Assembly: GCF_009754915.1 (NCBI RefSeq)
Contig: NZ_WPIK01000002.1
Location: forward strand, 124,001 to 188,000
From: Mucilaginibacter arboris
Lineage (GTDB): Bacteria; Bacteroidota; Bacteroidia; Sphingobacteriales; Sphingobacteriaceae
Direction: 5' to 3'
DNA length: 64,000 bases
Position numbers and translations under genes: made by a program. How positions within the stretch are numbered: position 1 is the stretch's first letter; each line of letters opens with the position of its first letter. The notes beneath the pieces are model-generated. The model did no database searches, was not told the DNA's origin, and saw nothing but the letters and a program-made list of their open reading frames with translations. Positions 36,389 through 49,809 of this stretch are shown here, piece after piece.

Positions 36389-36475
36389 ATGCTTCTTTTA
36401 TCGTACAAAAAACAGCAAATGCTTTTATAACAGGTTGAAAAACAAAATGCAAAATTATAGGCATAAAAGAAGCAT
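36389..36475. repeat. Dispersed inverted repeat, short form
   Basis: ATGCTTCTTTTATCG (from 36389) and GCATAAAAGAAGCAT (36461-36475). Third-from-start of three copies packed between gntR and the GH20 gene, a gap of 832 bp with no gene. Confidence 0.85.
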
Positions 36476-36762: not shown

Positions 36763-36868
36763 AATACTAAAATATTAATTTAGCAGCTCTTGTTATAAAT
36801 CTAACCTGACTGATCCCATAAACATCAGCTGGAAAATTAGTTTGCGTGCCGCATTTTATTTTATCGAT

Positions 36869-39469
36869 ATGAAAAAGCTTGTTTTTTATACATTATTGCT
36901 GTTAACCACTGCTGTATCTGCCCAGATAAAAACACAAGGGAAGAACGATGGTGCTTTTCCTACCTTTTATCAGCAACGGTCATCGCTTTTCAGGTTATTG
37001 CCGCAAACAAAAGGTGATATTATTTTTTTGGGGAACAGCATTACCAACGGAAGCGAGTGGGACGAGCTTTTTGCTGATCCTCGTATCAAAAACAGAGGGA
37101 TAAGCGGTGATGTTACGGCTGGTGTTTTAAACCGCCTCGACGAAGTTACCGAAAGGAAACCGGCTAAAATATTTCTCCTGATCGGTATCAATGACCTTTC
37201 TGCCGGCACTGCTCCGGATACTGTGGCCAAAAACATTTTCCTGATTGCTAAAAAAGTAAGCGGGCAAACGCCAACTACGCAATTGTATGTTCAAAGTTTG
37301 CTGCCCGTTAACAATACCCTGAACAAGTTTCCTACCCATGTGAACAAAGGCGAACAGATCAAGCGGGTTAACCAGTTGCTGCGTAGCAACGCTGCTTTAT
37401 ATCATTACACTTTTGTTGATCTTTTCCCTTCATTTTGTAACGCCGAAGGGAAATTAGATACGCTTTATACCAACGATGGCCTGCATCAAAAAGGGGCAGG
37501 TTATATGCTGTGGAAGCATCTGGTCTATCCTTTGGTTTATGATCTTCAAAATAAACCCTCGCTCATACCTTTACCACAATCGCTAAAATGGAATGAAGGT
37601 TACTTCCAATTATACAATTGTAAAACAATAGTGGTAAAAGAAGCATCATTACAAAAAGAAGCACTGCGCCTGCAGCAAAAACTGCTTCAAAAAGGATTGA
37701 TCGTAAGCATAGGCCGCGCAGCAAAAAACAACGAGCCTTTTATCGAATTGCGTCTGGCCAAAACCGATGCGCCCCAGTTAAAAGAGGAAGCTTACCATTT
37801 AGAAGTTTCCGGTCAGCGGGTTTTGCTTAATGCCAATACTGCCCATGGAATATTTAACGGTCTGCAAACCCTGGAACAACTGATGCGCGACAATACCATG
37901 ATCGATGCCTGCACCATAACCGACTGGCCTGCTTTTGCCTGGCGTGGTTATATGGTTGATGTTGGAAGGAACTTCCAGTCGGTAGATCTGCTGAAGCAGC
38001 AGATCGAAATCATGGGCCGCTATAAACTTAATATTTTTCATTTTCACCTCACAGAAGATATTGCCTGGCGGCTGGCCATTAAACAATATCCGCAATTAAC
38101 AGCAGCGGAAAATATGCAGCGCAACAAAGGTGAATATTATACAGAAGAAGAGCTGAAAGACCTAATCTTGTTTTGTAAAGAACGGTACATTACGCTTATC
38201 CCCGAAATAGATATGCCTGGCCATAGTGCTGCTTTTACCAGGGCTTTTGGTATAAGCATGCAAAGTGATTCGGGCATGGTTATCGTTAAGAACATTTTAA
38301 AGGAGGTTTGCGAAACCTACGATGTGCCTTATATTCATATCGGCGCGGACGAGGTTAGGATCAGCAATAAAAATTTCGTTCCGGAAGTTACGGCTTATAT
38401 TGAAAAGCTGGGCAAAAAGGTGATCGGCTGGCAGCCCGGAGGCAATTTTACCAACACCACTATCCGGCAAATGTGGATGGACGACAATGGGAAAATAGAA
38501 AATAACTCTGAAATCAGGTATATCGATTCGCGGCATTTGTACCTCAACCACATGGACCCTTTAGAGAGCGTGGTCACTATTTTTAACCGGGAAATTGGCA
38601 ATAAGCAAAAAGGCGACAGCAGGGCTTTGGGCGGTATTATTTGCGTTTGGCCCGACAGGAGAATTGAGAACGAGGCGGATAATCTGCGCACCAATCCGGT
38701 TTACCCGGCTATGCTTGCGTTTGCAGAACGAAGCTGGCGCGGAGGCGGAATACCCGGCTGGACAGCAAAGATAGGAAGCCCGGGCAGTGAAAACGCCAAA
38801 CAGTTTGCTGAGTTTGAAGACCGCCTGATGGACCAGAAACAAGAATATTTCCGCCGCCTTCCTTTTCCTTATGTGGCGCAAGCTTCCCTTAACTGGAAAC
38901 TGTACGGGCCTTATGAGAATAACGGAGACCTTTCCAAAACATTTGCCCCGGAGGATAAAAACTTCAGCCTCAATAGTGCAACACCTGTTGTACAGGCAGT
39001 TGGAGGAACAATCGTGCTGCGGCATTGGTGGTATCCGTTAATTAGCGGGGTGATCGAAAAACCAGCGGAAAACACCACCTGGTATGCCAGCACAAGCATT
39101 TGGAGCGAGGATAACCACGTGCAGGATTTCTGGATCGGGTTTAACAACCTTTCCCGTTCTACCGCTACGGATTCGCCTAAATGGGGCACCTGGAACGATT
39201 TGCAAAGTGAAGTCTGGGTAAACGGAAAATTAATACCGCCGCCGCACTGGAAAAGGGGAGGGCAAAAAGGCAATTCCGAAACTCCGCTGACAGACGAAGG
39301 CTATGAATACCGCGAGCCAACAAAAATAACTCTGCAAAAAGGGTGGAACCAGGTATTGATTAAAGCGCCCGTGGGCAGCTTTAAAGGCAAAGACTGGCAA
39401 AACCCCGTAAAATGGATGTTTACTTTTATAACTGTTCCGGCTGGTTATTTGGGTTGGGCCGCAAACTAA
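36869..39469 (+). CDS. SGNH hydrolase - GH20 beta-N-acetylhexosaminidase fusion
   Basis: 866 aa from the ATG at 36869, chosen because it begins a signal peptide (KKLVFYTLLLLTTAVSAQ); a TTG 27 bases upstream is unlikely. Residues ~45-225 are an SGNH/GDSL esterase: FLGNSITNG (Ser block), LLIGINDLSAG (GxND) and TNDGLHQKG (Asp-x-x-His). Then a GH20b domain (IPLPQSLKWNEGYFQLYN onward) and a GH20 barrel: WRGYMVDVGRNFQ, FHFHLTEDIAWRL (~390), PEIDMPGHSAAF, and the catalytic Asp-Glu pair in HIGADEVRI (~491). The last ~180 residues look like a beta-sandwich. It should deacylate and release terminal GlcNAc/GalNAc in the periplasm or at the surface. It is preceded by an operator-like site. Confidence 0.92.
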   Translation: MKKLVFYTLLLLTTAVSAQIKTQGKNDGAFPTFYQQRSSLFRLLPQTKGDIIFLGNSITNGSEWDELFADPRIKNRGISGDVTAGVLNRLDEVTERKPAKIFLLIGINDLSAGTAPDTVAKNIFLIAKKVSGQTPTTQLYVQSLLPVNNTLNKFPTHVNKGEQIKRVNQLLRSNAALYHYTFVDLFPSFCNAEGKLDTLYTNDGLHQKGAGYMLWKHLVYPLVYDLQNKPSLIPLPQSLKWNEGYFQLYNCKTIVVKEASLQKEALRLQQKLLQKGLIVSIGRAAKNNEPFIELRLAKTDAPQLKEEAYHLEVSGQRVLLNANTAHGIFNGLQTLEQLMRDNTMIDACTITDWPAFAWRGYMVDVGRNFQSVDLLKQQIEIMGRYKLNIFHFHLTEDIAWRLAIKQYPQLTAAENMQRNKGEYYTEEELKDLILFCKERYITLIPEIDMPGHSAAFTRAFGISMQSDSGMVIVKNILKEVCETYDVPYIHIGADEVRISNKNFVPEVTAYIEKLGKKVIGWQPGGNFTNTTIRQMWMDDNGKIENNSEIRYIDSRHLYLNHMDPLESVVTIFNREIGNKQKGDSRALGGIICVWPDRRIENEADNLRTNPVYPAMLAFAERSWRGGGIPGWTAKIGSPGSENAKQFAEFEDRLMDQKQEYFRRLPFPYVAQASLNWKLYGPYENNGDLSKTFAPEDKNFSLNSATPVVQAVGGTIVLRHWWYPLISGVIEKPAENTTWYASTSIWSEDNHVQDFWIGFNNLSRSTATDSPKWGTWNDLQSEVWVNGKLIPPPHWKRGGQKGNSETPLTDEGYEYREPTKITLQKGWNQVLIKAPVGSFKGKDWQNPVKWMFTFITVPAGYLGWAAN

Positions 39470-39484
39470 GCTTCCTGATTTCTG

Positions 39485-39571
39485 ATGCTTCTTTTATCAC
39501 CTAAAAATCATCAGGTTCCCAGGCTTTTCTTCAGGATGCAAACACCAATTTTTAGGTGGTAAAAGAAGCAT
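39485..39571. repeat. Dispersed inverted repeat, archetypal copy
   Basis: ATGCTTCTTTTATCACC at 39485 and GGTGGTAAAAGAAGCAT ending 39571 extend through CTAAAAAT/ATTTTTAG to 24-bp arms with one A-to-G difference, which would still pair as G-U in RNA. It starts 16 bases after the GH20 stop. Confidence 0.9.
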
Positions 39572-39602: not shown

Positions 39603-39998
39603 ATGGAAACTAAACCTAAGTTCTTCTTCGATTATATTTATTACCGAATGACCAAAGCATATTTTAAATGGGATGGAAGGACTGGCGGTACAGCAATTGT
39701 GGCCATAATGATGATTCAAATGTTATATATAATAGACGTTTTGGTTTTTATCCTGCGAGTATTTTATACCCGTAACCAGTTAAAAGATTTTAATAATTAT
39801 GGTAAAGGATTTATAATAATAATAGCTTTTATTCTTCTAATATACAACTACAGAAAATATAATGGCAGTTATAATAAACTGCGTTACTATTGGAAAGATG
39901 AAAGCAGAACCATGAGGGTATATAAAGGATTATTGGTAATTGTTTCTCTTATATTGCCCTGGGCGCCGTTAATACTGATGGGTATGTTTTGGAAATAA
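39603..39998 (+). CDS. Small three-TM membrane protein, array member 1
   Basis: 131 aa, unrecognised. An aromatic amphipathic N-terminal segment (FFFDYIYYRMTKAYFKWDG) is followed by three predicted membrane helices (~30-52, ~68-80, ~105-128) and a short positive loop (YNYRKYNGSYNKLRYYWKDE). The layout matches the four following genes, so it is probably a distant paralogue. No catalytic motif. Its ATG is in ACAGCAATGG. Function unknown; arrays of such proteins occur in other Bacteroidota genomes. Confidence 0.7.
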   Translation: METKPKFFFDYIYYRMTKAYFKWDGRTGGTAIVAIMMIQMLYIIDVLVFILRVFYTRNQLKDFNNYGKGFIIIIAFILLIYNYRKYNGSYNKLRYYWKDESRTMRVYKGLLVIVSLILPWAPLILMGMFWK

Positions 39999-40072
39999 AG
40001 GCATCTCACTTGTATCATGAATCACACATTGGTACCACTTGAATAATATGAATATGCAAGAGACCATTAATT

Positions 40073-40474
40073 ATGATAAAAAGATTTATTGAAACACTTT
40101 ACAAAGTAATGTTTAATCATTTTCTAAAAATAGATGGTGCAAAAGGAAAGCCGTCTCTAATAGCTTGTTGTGCAACAGCATTGTTTATAAATCTATTTAT
40201 GTTAAATATAAGCTGTGTTTTTAGTGTAATGCTAAACATTCCTGTTAAGGCAAATTATAACAAATTAGAAATTAACCTGTTTGTGCTGACTACATTTGGC
40301 CTTACCTATTTGCTTCTGTTTTCTGTTTTTCAATTTAAAAAAGTAGGTGATGGCGCTGATGGTTTTTTTATAATAACAGAACGTACTAAAAAAATAATCT
40401 GGTTAGTATTTTGGGGAAACTTGGTTTTAATGTTTGTATTAGCTTTATTTCGAAAATATTACTTTCATTTATAA
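40073..40474 (+). CDS. Small three-TM membrane protein, array member 2
   Basis: 133 aa. Amphipathic start (IKRFIETLYKVMFNHFLKID), then helices at ~30-55, ~68-88 and ~108-128, ending FRKYYFHL. It is closely similar to member 5 (41573-41974): FGLTYLLLFSV, KKVGDGADGFF, 'ITERTKKIIWLVFWGNLVLM' are nearly identical. About 50 bases upstream of the ATG are also shared (CTTGAATAAT, CCATTAATTATGATAAAAAG), showing duplication of gene plus leader. Function unknown. Confidence 0.72.
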   Translation: MIKRFIETLYKVMFNHFLKIDGAKGKPSLIACCATALFINLFMLNISCVFSVMLNIPVKANYNKLEINLFVLTTFGLTYLLLFSVFQFKKVGDGADGFFIITERTKKIIWLVFWGNLVLMFVLALFRKYYFHL

Positions 40475-40559
40475 GTGATAGTTAGATTTCCACAAAAGCA
40501 GTGGTTGTTTATAACTATAAACGATCATTAATTAACGGTGAAACAGGAGATTGCAATTT

Positions 40560-40964
40560 ATGTATAAACTATTTTATATCATCTACAACTCCTACTACAA
40601 ACATGGAAAATATAAAAATGACGTTCCATCGTTAACAGTTGGTGGGATATTTTGCATATTCTTTTTTAGTGTCCTGTTATCAGTAAATTGTATAATCGAG
40701 TGGATGTTCCAAGTAAATTATAGCTTGTCAAAACTTGACAGGTTCAATTCTTTTTTACTTGTTATTGCATTGGGTTTTATGGTTTACTTTGCTTTTTATC
40801 ATCACAAAAAATATCAGAAAATATATGAAAGGTATAAAGCAGATCTTTTCTTAAACAGTAAATATGGCCAATATATTGGTTTTATAATTGTATTTATGGT
40901 TATTTTATCCCCTGTATTTCTTGCATTGATCCGTAACAAGATTAATAGAGGTCATTGGTATTAA
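40560..40964 (+). CDS. Small three-TM membrane protein, array member 3
   Basis: 134 aa from the ATG at 40560 (MYKLFYIIYNSYYKHGKYKN); an in-frame TTG 9 bases upstream is possible. Same plan as its neighbours: aromatic amphipathic N-terminus, a Pro-containing entry to helix 1 (VPSLTVGGIFCIFFFSVLLS), two further helices and a basic tail (IRNKINRGHWY). More diverged than members 2, 4 and 5. Function unknown. Confidence 0.7.
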   Translation: MYKLFYIIYNSYYKHGKYKNDVPSLTVGGIFCIFFFSVLLSVNCIIEWMFQVNYSLSKLDRFNSFLLVIALGFMVYFAFYHHKKYQKIYERYKADLFLNSKYGQYIGFIIVFMVILSPVFLALIRNKINRGHWY

Positions 40965-41059
40965 TAAGCAAAATTTGAAAATGAAGTACTTTAATTGTAT
41001 TAAGAATTTTCACATTTGTACTACCTGAATTATGTGAACAGGCAAGCGACAATTAATTT

Positions 41060-41459
41060 ATGATAATAAAGAAGTTTATTGGAACACTTTATAAAGTGAC
41101 TTTTAATGCTTATGCAAAGGGGAATAATGAAAAAAATCCTTATTTATTCGCTTGGTTACTAACATCGTTATTTATTGCAGTATTATTAGTTAATCTGATC
41201 GGTAATTAGTATCGTTTTAAATACTAAAATTAAACTTAATTTTGGCGGCTTAGGCACTTGCGTTTTATTTAGTGTTATAATATATCTTACTCATATATTC
41301 CTGTTTAATATTCTTAATTTAAAAAAGATTGGGGATAATACGAACCGATATTTTTTAGTTTCTGCACGCACTGCTAAAATAATTGGGTCAGTGTATATCA
41401 TCAATTTTGTGTTAGCTTTTATTCTTCCTGTTTTAAAAAAGTATTACTTTCATTTATGA
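41060..41459 (+). pseudogene. Frameshifted array member 4
   Basis: Starts like its paralogues (MIIKKFIGTLYKVTFNAYAK) but the first frame stops at TAG after 'NLIGN' (about codon 49). The remainder continues in another frame: ISIVLNTKIKLNFGG through 'SARTAKIIGSVYIINFVLAF' to KKYYFHL and TGA. A single small indel near 41208 would restore a 133-aa protein. The upstream leader (TTTGTACTACCTGAATTAT) is shared with member 5. Confidence 0.75.
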
Positions 41460-41572
41460 TTATGGATTATATTTCGGCAAAAAACAACAGTTAATTTTAA
41501 TATTGTCGATTTGTATTACAAAATGACGTATTTGTACTGCTTGAATTATTAATAGTATGCAGGCCATTAACT

Positions 41573-41974
41573 ATGATAAAAAGATTTATTGGAACACTTT
41601 ACAAAGTAATGTTTAATTATCATTTAAAAATAGATGGTGCAAAAGTGAATCCGGCCCTGATGGCTTGTTGTGCAACAGCATTGTTTATAAATTTATTTGC
41701 TTTAAATTTAGTCACTATCTTTAGTATAATCATAAACACTCCTATTAGAGTCTATTACAATAAATTAGAAAATATACTATTAGTTCTCGCAACATTTGGC
41801 CTTACCTATGTACTTTTATTTTCTGTTTTAAAATTTAAGAAAATAGGTGATGGCGCTAAAGGTTTTTTTGCAATTACAGAACGTACTAAAAAAATAATTT
41901 GGTTAGTATTTTGGGGAAACATGGTTTTAATGTTTGTATCAGGGTTATTTCGAAAATATTATTTTAATCTATAA
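41573..41974 (+). CDS. Small three-TM membrane protein, array member 5
   Basis: 133 aa, close paralogue of member 2 (IKRFIGTLYKVMFNYHLKID at the N-terminus, FRKYYFNL at the C-terminus). Three helices at ~30-55, ~68-88, ~108-128. Divergence from member 2 is concentrated in the first extramembrane loop (SIIINTPIRVYYNKLENILL) rather than in the helices, which may mean selection on that loop. Function unknown. Confidence 0.72.
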   Translation: MIKRFIGTLYKVMFNYHLKIDGAKVNPALMACCATALFINLFALNLVTIFSIIINTPIRVYYNKLENILLVLATFGLTYVLLFSVLKFKKIGDGAKGFFAITERTKKIIWLVFWGNMVLMFVSGLFRKYYFNL

Positions 41975-42063
41975 TTGGTGTTAGCTTTCGGCAAAGAGCA
42001 GCGGTTACTTTTAACCATGATAGTTAGGAGTAGGCCATTAAATTAATTTTAATGTTTTAAGCA

Positions 42064-42468
42064 ATGTTAATAAAAAGGTACATCGAGATTTATTATAAAG
42101 TGATATTTAATCATGTACTAAAGAAACATGGTTTAATAATAAACCCCAGTTTAGCGGCCAGTTGTTTAATATCGATTTCTACACTAATGTTTACAATAAG
42201 TTTGGTAAATATATATTGTATGATTATGAAAATTCCAATCAATTTTCATAGTAATACAATGGAAAATTACGCTTTCACATTTATATTATTTTTTTTTATG
42301 TATCTGCTTTTGTTTTCTGTTTTTAAATTTAAAAAGGCAGGTGAAGGCGTAGATAAATCTTTTATGATTACTACATATGAAAAAAAAATTGTCTGGATTT
42401 TCTATTATAGCAATTTTATAATATGCCTTCTGCTAATTTTATTGCGGAAGTTCTATTTTAATTTATAA
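42064..42468 (+). CDS. Small three-TM membrane protein, array member 6
   Basis: 134 aa beginning MLIKRYIEIYYKVIFNHVLK and ending LRKFYFNL. Same fold plan; more diverged, with KKAGEGVDKSFMITTYEKKI replacing the GDGADGFFIITERTKKI segment. It lies 89 bases after member 5, giving a repeat unit near 0.5 kb. Function unknown. Confidence 0.7.
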   Translation: MLIKRYIEIYYKVIFNHVLKKHGLIINPSLAASCLISISTLMFTISLVNIYCMIMKIPINFHSNTMENYAFTFILFFFMYLLLFSVFKFKKAGEGVDKSFMITTYEKKIVWIFYYSNFIICLLLILLRKFYFNL

Positions 42469-42566
42469 GAATTACATTACTTTTAACCAAAGTAAAATAT
42501 TGACTTGGTTCGTGTCTATCATGCTGTAAATTCTAAAGAAAGGAAACCAATAATATAAATCATTCC

Positions 42567-43304
42567 TTGGAAAAAACATATAATACCCAAAGATATTTGA
42601 GTGGGAAAGCAACTTTGTGGGCATTTGCAATGTTCATATTCCTTTCATCCCTGTTAATCTTTATAGCTCTGATTTTTAAAGTTGGCGGTTCTTTTGTATT
42701 TATTGGATATGCTTTTTTATGCATTGTACCTTTTATGTTTTTACAAAGATTTAGGAAAATATTTACCAGAAATGTTATTGTGGAATTTAATAGTCAGTCG
42801 TTTTTAATTAAAGAATATGCTTTGAAGAGGGGCGATTTAATGCATGAATTCAATTGCCGGTGGGATGATATTAAATATTACAAATGTACTTTCAGCAGCA
42901 ATAAATACACTTCCATCAGTATTTATCTGAAAGATGGTGTAAATAAGAATTACGTGTTTAAAGACAATAAGGCAGAAAATGAAGCAATACAGGAAGAAAG
43001 TATTTTCAGTATCTTTTATTCATATATCAGCCGATATAATACTGACAAAACTTTTAATGAAAGAATTTTTCTTTCTCCATCATTTTTAGTTACAAGGCTT
43101 GGGACAATTTGTATAATTCTTCTTGCTATTCTGGGCATTGCTTCAGTCCTGTTTCAATTCTTGTATGCAGGTAAACTTTTGCCTCTTTCATCATTAATGG
43201 GTTTTAGTATGCTCTTGCAATTGATTATCAGGCGCGGGAACTATAAAAAGACATATAATAATATCATGAAATTGGATAATGATATTCATGAAAGTCATTC
43301 ATAA
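42567..43304 (+). CDS. Membrane protein with PH-like cytoplasmic domain
   Basis: 245 aa from a TTG start (MEKTYNTQRYLSGKATLWAF); no ATG is available upstream and the next one would cut into helix 1. Two helices (~17-38, ~42-60), then a ~100-residue soluble part (VIVEFNSQSFLIKEYALKRG, CRWDDIKYYKCTFSSNKYTS, ISIYLKDGVNKNYVF) with the beta-strand pattern of bacterial PH/YcxB-type domains, then two more helices (~175-220). Not named in any family I can state with confidence. It follows the three-TM array by about 100 bases and may be functionally tied to it. Confidence 0.65.
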   Translation: MEKTYNTQRYLSGKATLWAFAMFIFLSSLLIFIALIFKVGGSFVFIGYAFLCIVPFMFLQRFRKIFTRNVIVEFNSQSFLIKEYALKRGDLMHEFNCRWDDIKYYKCTFSSNKYTSISIYLKDGVNKNYVFKDNKAENEAIQEESIFSIFYSYISRYNTDKTFNERIFLSPSFLVTRLGTICIILLAILGIASVLFQFLYAGKLLPLSSLMGFSMLLQLIIRRGNYKKTYNNIMKLDNDIHESHS

Positions 43305-43749: not shown

Positions 43750-44274
43750 TTAGTTTTTAAAATATTGTGAAATAAGCCTTAAAACAGCCTTTGTTTCAAT
43801 AAACATTCTTATTCCGCGAAAATGTGTTGCAAAAAGTGATTGTTCATAATGTTTGATCAGTGCTGTTTTTGCATCAAAAGCAATAAAGCCCTCGTAACCT
43901 TTGTTAACAGATACTTTACAAGCGTAAGCAACCAAATTTCCAGGAACGCCAAGATAAACTTTATTTTTGCCTTTGTTAAATTTTGAACTTTCGATTAAGT
44001 GCATAAATATGTGGTCTGTTTTATCTTCAATGCTTAAAAGTCCCTGAATGATTGTAGGATTGTTTATAGTTGTCAACTTAAAAACTTCCTTGTTTTCATG
44101 TTTAAGTTCTTTGTGCCAATCAAACTGCCAATCTGCTTTTTTGATCTGCCTGCTATCTGTATGCGTAAGCCTAAAAATTTCTGTATCGAAAACCTCGCCA
44201 GTTAAAACATTTTCGATTGAATTTGTCAGCTTGTCAATCTCAAAGTCAAGTCCGGTATCTTTTTGCCTTTTCAA
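43750..44274 (-). CDS. GNAT-like protein of a two-gene module
   Basis: 174 aa. The second half resembles an N-acetyltransferase core: HIFMHLIESSKFNKGKNKVY, then VPGNLVAYACKVSVNKGYEG and FIAFDAKTALIKHYEQSLFA, i.e. the strand-loop-helix where GNATs bind acetyl-CoA and the following 'HYE..LFA' strand. The N-terminal half (LTGEVFDTEIFRLTHTDSRQ) is not recognised. A complete GNAT pyrophosphate loop (Q/RxxGxG/A) is not obvious, so activity is uncertain. Partner is the 56-aa gene 3 bases downstream. Alternatives: a toxin of the GNAT class, or an orphan modifying enzyme. Confidence 0.6.
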   Translation of the reverse strand: MKRQKDTGLDFEIDKLTNSIENVLTGEVFDTEIFRLTHTDSRQIKKADWQFDWHKELKHENKEVFKLTTINNPTIIQGLLSIEDKTDHIFMHLIESSKFNKGKNKVYLGVPGNLVAYACKVSVNKGYEGFIAFDAKTALIKHYEQSLFATHFRGIRMFIETKAVLRLISQYFKN

Positions 44275-44460: not shown

Positions 44461-44551
44461 ATACTTCTTTTAGCTGGGTAAAATTAGTTTGCTATCCGAT
44501 AGCTTTTCAACTTCGAATAACCCCCTGATTTTCATCCCCTAAAAGAAGCAT
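44461..44551. repeat. Dispersed inverted repeat, diverged copy
   Basis: ATACTTCTTTTAGC (44461) and CCTAAAAGAAGCAT (to 44551). It is the only repeat in the 500-bp gap between the GNAT-like gene and susC, which also holds the regulatory sites listed next. Confidence 0.7.
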
Positions 44552-44774: not shown

Positions 44775-47700
44775 ATGAACCTAAAATTTACTTTCTTCAA
44801 AACTTTGTTAACGGTGATAGGGGTAATGCTCTATACCGTTTTACATGCCCAAACGGGAACGGTTTCCGGTACGGTTACCGCAGAAAAAGACAAACAAACC
44901 CTTCCGGCCGTTTCTGTGGTGGTGAAGGGAAAACCAGGGGGCACACAAACCGGTTTGGACGGCACTTTTAAAGTCAAAGCCGACAAAGGGGATGTGCTGG
45001 TTTTTACTTCGATCGGTTTTGTAACCAAACAGGTAACCGTAGGAAGTTCCACCAATATTCAAGTGGCCCTGGCAGAAAGTTCCAACACTTTAAACGAAGT
45101 GGTAGTGGTTGGTTACGGCACGCAATCGCGCAGTACCGTAACCAGCGCTGTTGCCAAGCTGGATAACCAGGTGCTGGCCACTGCTCCGCGAGCAAACATT
45201 GGCAGCGCTTTACAGGGAACTATTTCTGGTGTCCAGGTGGTTAATTCCAGCGGTTCGCCGGGTTCATCTCCGTTAATTACCTTGCGTGGCGGCGCTTCTA
45301 TCAGCAGTTCAACTGCTCCATTGGTAGTGGTTGATGGTATTATCAGATCATATAATGATATTCCGTCGGAGGATATTGCTTCAATCGATGTTTTAAAAGA
45401 TGCTGCTGCAACGGCTATTTACGGTGCAAGGGCCAATAACGGCGTTATCCTGATCACGACCAAGCAGGGCAAATCAGGTGTTTCTCAAATTTCCTATAAA
45501 TTTACCGAAGGCTATAACAAGCAAAGGGATAATTACCATTACCTGGATGCCGGCGATTTTATTTATTATAACCGGCTGGGCAACATCAATTCCGGCAGGA
45601 CATTGGCCCAAATTAACGCCAGCCGAGGTTATGGCTTGTTAACGGATGCCGCTAACGCAGCTTCTTTTGATATTAAGGCAGAAACGCCAGCAAATATCGG
45701 ACTTTTACAGCAGGGATGGCAGGATATCGACGATCCGGCAAATCCGGGGAGTAAAATCATCTACAAAGACCATGGCCAGCAGATCCAGAACTTACTATTC
45801 AGGAACTCCCATACGCAGGACCATTATTTAAGCGCTACCGGCGGCAATGATAAAGGCAGATATTTTAGCAGCCTGGATTATTATAATGAGGACGGTGTAA
45901 TTATCGGTTCCAATTACAACCGTTACTCCGGAACACTCAATGGCTCTTATAAAGTAAAACCTAACATCGAAGTATCTTCCGGGGCCACGTTCAGCACTTC
46001 GTCCCAATTAGGCGTAGTAGGTAGTTCTGAAATAAATACGCTCTATCGTAATTTAGCTTTATGGCCAACTTTTAACCCCTGGCTGGATGCGGCAGATACC
46101 CAGCCTAACCCGGGTAATGGTGTTACGGATGGTAACCCTTTATATTGGCTGAACAAGCTTAAAAGAAGCAACGAGGTTGACAGGATAACAGCTAATGCAG
46201 CAGTTAAATGGGATATCCGCCCCGACTTATACCTGCGTGTATCCGGTAGCGGTTATTTGTATCAAACGGTAAACCAGTCTTTCCAGCAGGCAACCCAAAC
46301 TTATACCCAAATTTTCGCTGCCGTGCCATCATTTAGTACCAGCAGGGAATCGTATAACCAGTATTACAGAACTTTCCAGCAAACTTATGATGCCATTTTA
46401 AATTATACCAAAGATTTTGGAAAGCATCATATCACCGCCTTGCTTGGTGCAGAATATTATGATCAGACAGCTTTAACTATTCAGGTTGATGGTACTAATG
46501 CGCCTACAGACGCTATCCCGACAGCAAATGCTTCAACAACATTTAATGTGGGTGCTAATACAAGTTCGCAATCAGAAAACCGTATTATATCCTCTTTTAC
46601 CCGGGTAGGATATGATTATGACCGGAAATATCTTTTCAATTTTGTATTAAGGGAAGACGGCGTATCTCAATTAGCGTTTCAGAAAAGGTTAGGTTTTTTC
46701 CCGGGTATATCTGCCGGATGGGATGTGGTGAGAGAAAATTTCTTTGAAAATTCCGGTATCAGTAAAGTGGTATCTACCTTGAAACCACGAGTAAGTTATG
46801 GTACAAACGGTAATATTGCCGGTTTGGGCAATTATGATGTGCAGGGCGTTTATAGTTCTCAGACATTATATAATGGTTTGGGAACTTTCTTAAACACTGG
46901 TTTAACCAACAATAATTTGGTTTGGGAAAAAAGCAGGACTACAGATGTAGGTGCTGATATTGGCTTTTTTAAAGACAGGATCAGTTTGATATTTGATTAT
47001 TACAACCGCATCACCAGCGATCTGCTAACTAACTTATCTTTACCAAGCTACACCGGCTTTTCTACCTTAAAAACCAACTTAGGTACTTTACAGAACAGAG
47101 GGGTTGAGTTTACACTGAATGGCAATATCATCAATAACCCTAAAGGCTTTCGTTTAAGCGCAGGTGTAACGGCATCTTATGTAAGGAACAAAGTTTTGAA
47201 ACTGCCTTATAATGGAAATGTTAATAACAGGCAGGGCGGCTTGCAGGTTTATGACCCTAAATCCGGACAGGTGATTTATGTTGGGGGTTTGCAGGAAGGC
47301 CAGGAACCGGGCCAGATCTACGGTTATAAACAAGTGTCTATTTTTAAAGATGCAGCAGATGTGGCAGCGGTAGCAGGTAACCGGATTGATAATGTAGCCA
47401 ATATTACCGGGCCAAACTTGCCTGCAGGAAAAGGCGGCCATATTACGCCAGGTGATGTGAACTGGCTGGATGTGGATAAAAATGATACCATCGACTCAAG
47501 GGACCAGGTTTACTTAGGCAATATCAACCCGAGATGGCAGGGCGGTTTCAATATCAATGTTGCCTATAAAGCCCTCTCTTTATACACCCGCTTCCAGTAC
47601 AATACCGGTAATACCATTTATAATGACCTGGTTGCCCGTACTTTAGGTAATTACCAGGGAACGTTTAATTATATCGACCTGATTAAACAGGCATGGTCCC

Positions 47701-48080
47701 CAACAAACACTGTCACAGATATACCCAAAGTGTATTATGCTGATCAGGTGGTGGGCTCCAAGCAAAACTATACCCGGGGCAATAATGGCACCGCTACTTT
47801 AAATGGCAATAACTCTAATTTTTACGAAAGCGGCAATTACCTGGCCTGCCGGGAAATTACCTTGTCTTATGATTTCCCCAAAAATCTTTTGGGTAAAACT
47901 AAATTCCTGTCGGGGGCCAGGATCTACGTCAGCGGCGAGAACTTGTTTTACCTGAAAAAATTCAGCGGTCCAACACCAGAAGCTCCTATTGATCCAAGTA
48001 CCGGGTTAATTAACGGGATCTATCAGGGGACTTATCCAACGCCAAAAAGTTTTGTATTTGGTATCCAGGCATCTTTTTAA
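44775..48080 (+). CDS. SusC/RagA TonB-dependent transporter of the sialoglycan locus
   Basis: 1101 aa. Signal peptide to LHAQ (~residue 26), carboxypeptidase-regulatory-like domain (GTVSGTVTAEKDKQTLPAVS), TonB-box-like LNEVVVVGYGTQSRS, plug with 'LITLRGGASISSSTAPLVVV' and DIASIDVLKDAAATAIYGAR, and a 22-strand barrel ending in FVFGIQASF. It imports glycan fragments or free sialic acid captured by the SusD encoded 19 bases downstream; NanO of Tannerella/Bacteroides has this role. Assignment to sialic acid rests on the surrounding genes. Confidence 0.96.
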   Translation: MNLKFTFFKTLLTVIGVMLYTVLHAQTGTVSGTVTAEKDKQTLPAVSVVVKGKPGGTQTGLDGTFKVKADKGDVLVFTSIGFVTKQVTVGSSTNIQVALAESSNTLNEVVVVGYGTQSRSTVTSAVAKLDNQVLATAPRANIGSALQGTISGVQVVNSSGSPGSSPLITLRGGASISSSTAPLVVVDGIIRSYNDIPSEDIASIDVLKDAAATAIYGARANNGVILITTKQGKSGVSQISYKFTEGYNKQRDNYHYLDAGDFIYYNRLGNINSGRTLAQINASRGYGLLTDAANAASFDIKAETPANIGLLQQGWQDIDDPANPGSKIIYKDHGQQIQNLLFRNSHTQDHYLSATGGNDKGRYFSSLDYYNEDGVIIGSNYNRYSGTLNGSYKVKPNIEVSSGATFSTSSQLGVVGSSEINTLYRNLALWPTFNPWLDAADTQPNPGNGVTDGNPLYWLNKLKRSNEVDRITANAAVKWDIRPDLYLRVSGSGYLYQTVNQSFQQATQTYTQIFAAVPSFSTSRESYNQYYRTFQQTYDAILNYTKDFGKHHITALLGAEYYDQTALTIQVDGTNAPTDAIPTANASTTFNVGANTSSQSENRIISSFTRVGYDYDRKYLFNFVLREDGVSQLAFQKRLGFFPGISAGWDVVRENFFENSGISKVVSTLKPRVSYGTNGNIAGLGNYDVQGVYSSQTLYNGLGTFLNTGLTNNNLVWEKSRTTDVGADIGFFKDRISLIFDYYNRITSDLLTNLSLPSYTGFSTLKTNLGTLQNRGVEFTLNGNIINNPKGFRLSAGVTASYVRNKVLKLPYNGNVNNRQGGLQVYDPKSGQVIYVGGLQEGQEPGQIYGYKQVSIFKDAADVAAVAGNRIDNVANITGPNLPAGKGGHITPGDVNWLDVDKNDTIDSRDQVYLGNINPRWQGGFNINVAYKALSLYTRFQYNTGNTIYNDLVARTLGNYQGTFNYIDLIKQAWSPTNTVTDIPKVYYADQVVGSKQNYTRGNNGTATLNGNNSNFYESGNYLACREITLSYDFPKNLLGKTKFLSGARIYVSGENLFYLKKFSGPTPEAPIDPSTGLINGIYQGTYPTPKSFVFGIQASF

Positions 48081-49692: not shown

Positions 49693-49809
49693 ATGCTTCT
49701 TTTATCACCTAAAAATCATCAAGCTTCATTCGCTTTTTTACAGCCGACAGCTCCCTCTCCTCTGGAGAGGGCCGGGCTGAGGCTAATTTTACAGGGGTAA
49801 AAGAAGCAT
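49693..49809. repeat. Dispersed repeat with nested CTCCCTCTCC hairpin
   Basis: ATGCTTCTTTTATCACC (49693) and GGGGTAAAAGAAGCAT (to 49809). The loop contains GCTCCCTCTCC/GGAGAGGGCC, a hairpin of a type also found in the 57684 copy. Confidence 0.85.

Follow-up and report, generated by a model that had tools for sequence, protein, structure and literature searches.

Related systems and the array

Polyimmunity loci are tandem sets of immunity genes that share one strand, are closely spaced and are not interrupted by a toxin gene; they are proposed to guard against toxins of non-kin, and their commonest members belong to the SUKH superfamily (PMC3482391). Further orphan collections of immunity genes are the AID and rAID arrays; in gut Bacteroidales, rAID systems consist of short and divergent immunity genes in a single orientation, answer type VI effectors and have a predicted tyrosine recombinase (PMC12247911). 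The immunity gene bfi1 was found in 35 strains, always in a type VI cluster with bfe1, and was absent from immunity islands (PMC6692515). CdzI of Caulobacter, a small inner-membrane protein with three predicted helices, protects against glycine-zipper proteins that a type I system exports and is encoded together with these toxins of 84 and 86 amino acids (aa) (PMC5380434), and the E1-type immunity proteins of pore-forming colicins and pyocin S5 have three membrane helices and are encoded downstream of the toxin (PMC9018753). Here, a 64,000-nucleotide (nt) stretch of the Mucilaginibacter arboris genome (contig NZ_WPIK01000002.1, positions 124,001 to 188,000; the window) was analysed for an array of seven co-oriented membrane-protein genes in a row, m1 to m7 (Table 1), of which m1 to m6 form a family of small proteins, m4 is broken and m7 encodes a larger protein. 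From its sequence and that of its relatives, the array is likely to be an orphan polyimmunity locus whose inner-membrane proteins would block foreign membrane toxins, because relatives in other genomes often sit directly behind toxin-like genes.

As in polyimmunity loci, at least four immunity-type genes stand in tandem on one strand with short gaps (six family genes, one broken, plus m7) and with no toxin gene between them; SUKH proteins predominate there, whereas the genes here encode three-helix membrane proteins and one larger membrane protein. The array shares with rAID the orphan state, the short, co-oriented and divergent genes and the phylum, but the partners seen for its relatives were double-glycine and Rhs proteins, not type VI effectors, and its neighbours were read as GH20-like and SusC-like genes, no search having been aimed at recombinases. 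Conserved intergenic motifs, also an rAID feature, were looked at: the leaders before m2, m4 and m5 are similar, for which duplication would account. CdzI, likened here by its published description, is small, membrane-bound and three-helical like the array proteins but is encoded with its toxins. The three membrane helices of E1-type immunity proteins were also seen here (hydropathy of five members, model of m5), while their toxin domain, PF01024, was absent from the toxin-side proteins scanned.

Toxin-like genes upstream of the relatives

The gene just upstream of the relatives was repeatedly a toxin-like open reading frame (ORF) with a hydrophobic, glycine-rich C-terminal domain, and the family genes started −42 to +67 nt after such ORFs. 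At one set of loci (L064, L104, L118 and later L144, L145, L158) the toxin-like protein has a double-glycine leader; at another (L106, L113, L114 and later L175, the last by eye) it is an Rhs protein or fragment, that of L106 matching the Rhs core model (E 1e-19). C39-peptidase ABC transporters were found near the L118, L104 and L181 loci, HlyD genes near L118 and L181, and an outer-membrane efflux gene near L118. These neighbourhoods support the proposal of an earlier note, made from the window sequence only, that the array encodes immunity or conflict proteins.

Profiles of the toxin domain were built from four sequences of the double-glycine type (A2) and three of the Rhs type (A3), and matched 12/399 and 9/399 genomes of the same bacterial family, respectively. 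For hits unused in model building, a called family gene lay directly 3′ (downstream window −45 to +70 nt) in 9 of 17 cases, compared with 9 of 1,922 other ORFs of at least 49 aa in the same 45 loci (Fisher p 1e-15), many of which had been fetched for holding a family gene, which raised the background. Neither the toxin domain nor the immunity family had a Pfam or NCBIfam match above cut-off, except that two toxins matched in their Fer4 or Rhs-core part; candidate toxin–immunity pairs can be named for a domain and a family that the libraries do not cover at that level.

At L107 7466–8110 (genome G402) the A2-type domain is fused to, and lies behind, a ferredoxin-like part, which carries 4Fe-4S motifs and matches Pfam Fer4 (E 4e-11); the start codon of this ORF is ambiguous and the family gene begins 10 nt behind it. 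Five toxin-domain hits were found at L147, L148 and L149 of one genome (G089), three of them in a row in L148, with a called family gene after three and look-alikes after two. At L176 351–2398 (a Bacteroidales metagenome-assembled genome), a pretoxin HINT match (E 2.5e-7) lies directly upstream of an m1-type gene, and this protein is perhaps a further delivery head. The VasX-like toxin Bte2 (PMC12718326) was considered as the toxin type and set aside, there being no ground to equate the two and no comparison having been made.

Relatives of m7 were found in 4/301 genomes at E ≤ 0.001, the own genome included. At L181 the relative has its first base in common with the end of a double-glycine toxin-like gene, with HlyD and C39 ABC genes alongside, and m7 was counted as part of the immunity row because of this position; at L153 it follows a family gene that itself has an A3 fragment just before it, and at L065 some 3.5 kb separate it from a family gene. 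The protein has hydrophobic stretches at residues 13–62 and 167–222 with a polar middle between them, and its single-sequence model (two helices, three strands, helices) had a mean predicted local distance difference test score (pLDDT) of 56, mostly below 50 in the middle. The array had been described as ending at a membrane protein with a PH-like domain; the membrane protein stands, but no PH fold was called because the model was too poor, and m7 matched nothing in Pfam or NCBIfam at E ≤ 1. It also had no match in viral contigs.

Occurrence of the family

Searches with single proteins reached little beyond the own genome. With m5 alone no match was found in a collection of genome contigs, and against 60 relatives nothing outside the own genome fell below E 9e-4; one weak match of m5 led to a tandem family set behind a toxin-like gene, and m3 gave one clear relative (E 2e-17). 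A profile of eight family members (A1) matched 33/399 genomes of the same bacterial family, in 8/25 genera (E ≤ 0.001). A wider profile (A4), with the 12 best candidates scored per genome, matched 5/345 genomes sampled across the phylum at E ≤ 1e-4, own genome included; the loci of two of the other four were inspected by eye and had no toxin-like gene adjoining. Stable single copies with housekeeping linkage, which would speak against a role in conflict, were not the pattern: the family is patchy, its genomic contexts differ among the relatives, and the two other genomes of the genus had no family match, their best matches to the GH20-like gene beside the array being distant (38% and 42% identity). 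No match was found for m5 in plasmids or phages, or for an m1-type alignment in viral contigs. PADLOC gave E 0.003 or worse, taken as chance, and a sequence search of the PDB E 0.096 or worse.

Another family-gene row lacking a called toxin was seen at L100 7626–10867 (G137), with six called ORFs of which two are short (61 and 96 aa). At L172 5469–7895 (Pedobacter steynii), two m1-type genes stand among two other small membrane-protein genes, perhaps as another orphan immunity row.

Structure and relationships of the array proteins

Five intact genes and one frameshifted gene for proteins of about 133 aa with three membrane helices, repeated at about 0.5 kb, had been reported for the array, and ORFs (131–134 aa for the intact genes), hydropathy (three membrane stretches in m1, m2, m3, m5, m6) and DNA repeats agree with this. 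The structure of m5, predicted from 12 sequences as had been proposed, consists of an N-terminal helix and three long helices (residues 2–21, 27–53, 64–93 and 103–129; mean pLDDT 76). Lysine and arginine were richer in loop 2 than in loop 1 in 4/5 intact small proteins; the count for m6 was 1 vs 0, with 3 acidic residues. By the positive-inside rule, membrane-protein loops rich in these residues face the cytoplasm, and loop 1 should therefore face the periplasm.

The members are paralogous in the close sense in part. Amino acid identity was 74% for m2/m5 and 41% for m2/m6 and m5/m6, and the broken m4 aligns with residues 1–46 and 42–133 of m2 in two frames; these four genes are local duplicates of one another. 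The distant relatives in the array are m1 and m3, about 20% identical to the other members and with their closest kin in other genomes; pairwise BLAST E values reached 1.7e-5 (m2/m3) and 2.2e-5 (m1/m3), which are weak alone since no composition correction was applied.

The ratio of non-synonymous to synonymous substitution rates (dN/dS) was 0.39 for m2–m5, 0.43 for m2–m6 and 0.33 for m5–m6, and because of these values the intact copies look kept. m2 and m5 had been said to differ mostly in the first loop. With segment borders set by hand, changes were indeed dense in loop 1 (dN 0.30), but also in the first transmembrane segment (0.23), compared with 0.09 and 0.07 in the second and third; loop 2 had six changes, with dN 0.14 over dS 0.09. 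Positive selection on loop 1 was not supported by dN/dS and was dropped as an explanation.

A tree was calculated from 54 sequences, leaving out three called family ORFs below 100 aa; its 49 outside sequences comprised 10 with an A2 partner, 6 with an A3 partner and 33 with no called partner. Of the array genes, only m2, m5 and m6 formed a within-genome clade (support 100/90), inside a clade of 15 (100/98) that holds two A2-partner genes. The clade of m1 has 11 sequences (100/99), four of them A3-partner genes, and the four genes that group with m3 (91/68) have no called partner. With midpoint rooting, all 6 A3-partner genes lie on the m1 side and all 10 A2-partner genes on the m2/m5/m6 side. 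The A2 label required 7 changes on the tree (shuffled mean 9.4; 12/500 shuffles as low) and all labels together 16 (shuffled mean 19.8; 0/200 as low). Because m1 and m3 branch among genes from elsewhere and m2, m5 and m6 with one another, the row is, on this phylogeny, assembled from several lineages, one group having then been duplicated.

Search for a toxin in the own genome

The ORF listing of the locus contained no toxin-like gene between or beside the array genes, as had been noted; the suggested search for neighbouring toxins thus gave toxin-like genes beside relatives elsewhere and none beside the array itself. In the own genome (completeness 99.34%), the A2 and A3 profiles gave 0 hits, as did C39 peptidase (control positive in 8/14 genomes), the Rhs core (control positive in 2/14 genomes) and an m7-type toxin, the last searched for without a positive control. 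The toxin or exporter of a self-protecting producer was hence not found with two toxin models, C39 and the Rhs core; type VI secretion genes were not searched for in any genome.

Interpretation

From sequence we infer an immunity function, a matching of members to toxins and a block of pores by direct contact. Each small protein, built of an N-terminal helix and three membrane helices, would reside in the inner membrane. There, within the membrane or at its surface, it would contact the hydrophobic C-terminal domain of an arriving toxin and prevent a pore from forming, in a way similar to that of E1-type immunity proteins against pore-forming colicins; pore formation is what the hydrophobic, glycine-rich sequence of the domain, taken by itself, suggests. 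m1 would answer Rhs-borne toxins, m2, m5 and m6 (formerly also m4) toxins with a double-glycine leader, and m7 a further double-glycine toxin. The genes would have been gathered from several lineages, with duplication of one group and breakage of one copy, and the array would protect against the toxins of other bacteria, since no matching toxin was found in the own genome. With rather less confidence, we lean towards a wider reading: that an undescribed glycine-rich membrane-toxin domain, common to Bacteroidota, moves between delivery heads (double-glycine/C39, Rhs and perhaps ferredoxin-like and HINT proteins) and that two families of membrane immunity proteins, unrelated to each other, answer it, the locus being a pure-defence collection of both with no matching weapon found in the genome.

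Several observations weigh against the polyimmunity reading. A2 and A3 align colinearly but weakly (hhalign P 0.003, probability 4%), and both were built from proteins first seen beside family genes. No Pfam toxin domain, including PF01024, was found in the toxin-side proteins (seven scanned at E ≤ 1, four more at E ≤ 0.001), and neither a solved relative nor a fold match emerged from the PDB (by fold, two matches at E 9.7; best Z 3.8 on a second look). Clear positive selection, for which dN/dS along the paralogues had been proposed as a check, was not seen between m2 and m5 (overall value as above). The root split of the tree is weak (79/82) with several long end branches, the A3 label clustered no better than in shuffles (6 changes, shuffled mean 5.8), and 33 of the 49 outside sequences had no called toxin partner. 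A called family gene was also missing behind 8 of the 17 held-out toxin hits: at L147 and L148 5458–6705 the next proteins resemble the family by eye but were uncalled, the hits at L146 and L152 are fragmentary (49 and 58 aa), those at L150 and L151 look spurious, and those at L155 and L156 2571–2975 had no called partner.

The many partnerless relatives would also be expected if the small membrane proteins served the envelope or a stress response and had no immunity role; this is very improbable given the strong excess of family genes behind held-out toxin hits and the patchy spread. That the array protects its own host from a cognate toxin elsewhere in the genome, too divergent for the models, gains from the few sequences behind those models and from the uncontrolled m7-type search, but we regard it as improbable in view of the empty searches for toxin models, C39 and Rhs core and of the lack of a toxin-like gene beside the array. 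A relic, that is, immunity genes drifting after loss of their toxin, would account for the broken m4 and the lack of a toxin hit in the own genome; it is equally improbable, as five members and m7 are intact and the dN/dS values between copies are 0.33–0.43.

Immunity to Bfe1-like type VI effectors, in place of double-glycine or Rhs toxins, was considered because the NCBIfam model NF053699 (Bfi1 family immunity protein) weakly matched m1 and m3 over nearly their whole length and 8/31 family members at E ≤ 0.01 (best E 1.3e-5), though not m2 or m6; the proteins also have a length similar to Bfi1. The scores of m1 and m3 (22.7 and 25.2 bits) are far below the cut-off of 100, for which reason the array was not filed under Bfi1, and the neighbours of the relatives were double-glycine or Rhs proteins, so this reading is unlikely; by the weak matches, the array may be distantly related to the Bfi1 family.

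The orphan polyimmunity locus thus remains the preferred reading, in favour of which the Bfi1 matches and the low G+C content of the array also count. Polyimmunity loci as such are already known; the family, the toxin domain and their pairing did not come up in the libraries and the literature covered, most subscription papers lying outside the latter. The orphan arrays of gut Bacteroidales described in PMC12247911 concern type VI effectors; the present one suggests that members of the Pedobacter family defend themselves against Rhs toxins and toxins with a double-glycine leader. If this holds, two questions follow: do orphan copies carried by one genome stop toxins that others produce, and by what means does a three-helix protein recognise a membrane-active domain?

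Gene layout and DNA repeats

Table 1. Array genes and neighbouring features (positions in the window)
Feature	Position	Strand or location	Description
m1	39603–39998	+	131 aa, three membrane stretches; in a clade of genes with Rhs-type partners
m2	40073–40474	+	133 aa
m3	40560–40964	+	134 aa from ATG, 137 aa from TTG at 40551; clade without called toxin partner
m4	41060–41460	+	broken (frameshifted) copy, two frames
m5	41573–41974	+	133 aa; structure modelled
m6	42064–42468	+	134 aa
m7	42567–43304	+	245 aa, TTG start as listed; membrane protein, polar middle
GH20-like gene	36842–39469	upstream of array	named by eye from translation
SusC-like gene	44775–48080	downstream of array	named by eye from translation
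174-aa ORF	43750–44274	−	open reading frame behind array

Gaps between the genes m1–m7 were 74–112 nt. The G+C content of the array was 28.3%, compared with 39.3% for the window, and only 2 of 603 pieces of 3.7 kb were equally low. A DNA repeat of 300 nt is common to m2, m5 (81%) and m6 (60%), and one of 63 nt lies around the starts of m2, m4, m5 and m6; some of the repeats of these four genes extend into the leaders, which bears out the earlier description of a repeat unit that includes the leader. The 174-aa ORF behind the array had no match in Pfam or PADLOC.

Palindromic repeats flank the array; the idea that they are mobility ends was rejected because they are spread all over the window. 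The underlying 12-mer, ATGCTTCTTTTA, occurs 43 times in the window with at most one mismatch (1.2 expected), often as inverted pairs about 70–110 nt apart, e.g. at 39485–39571, 44461–44551, 36389–36475 and 49693–49809.

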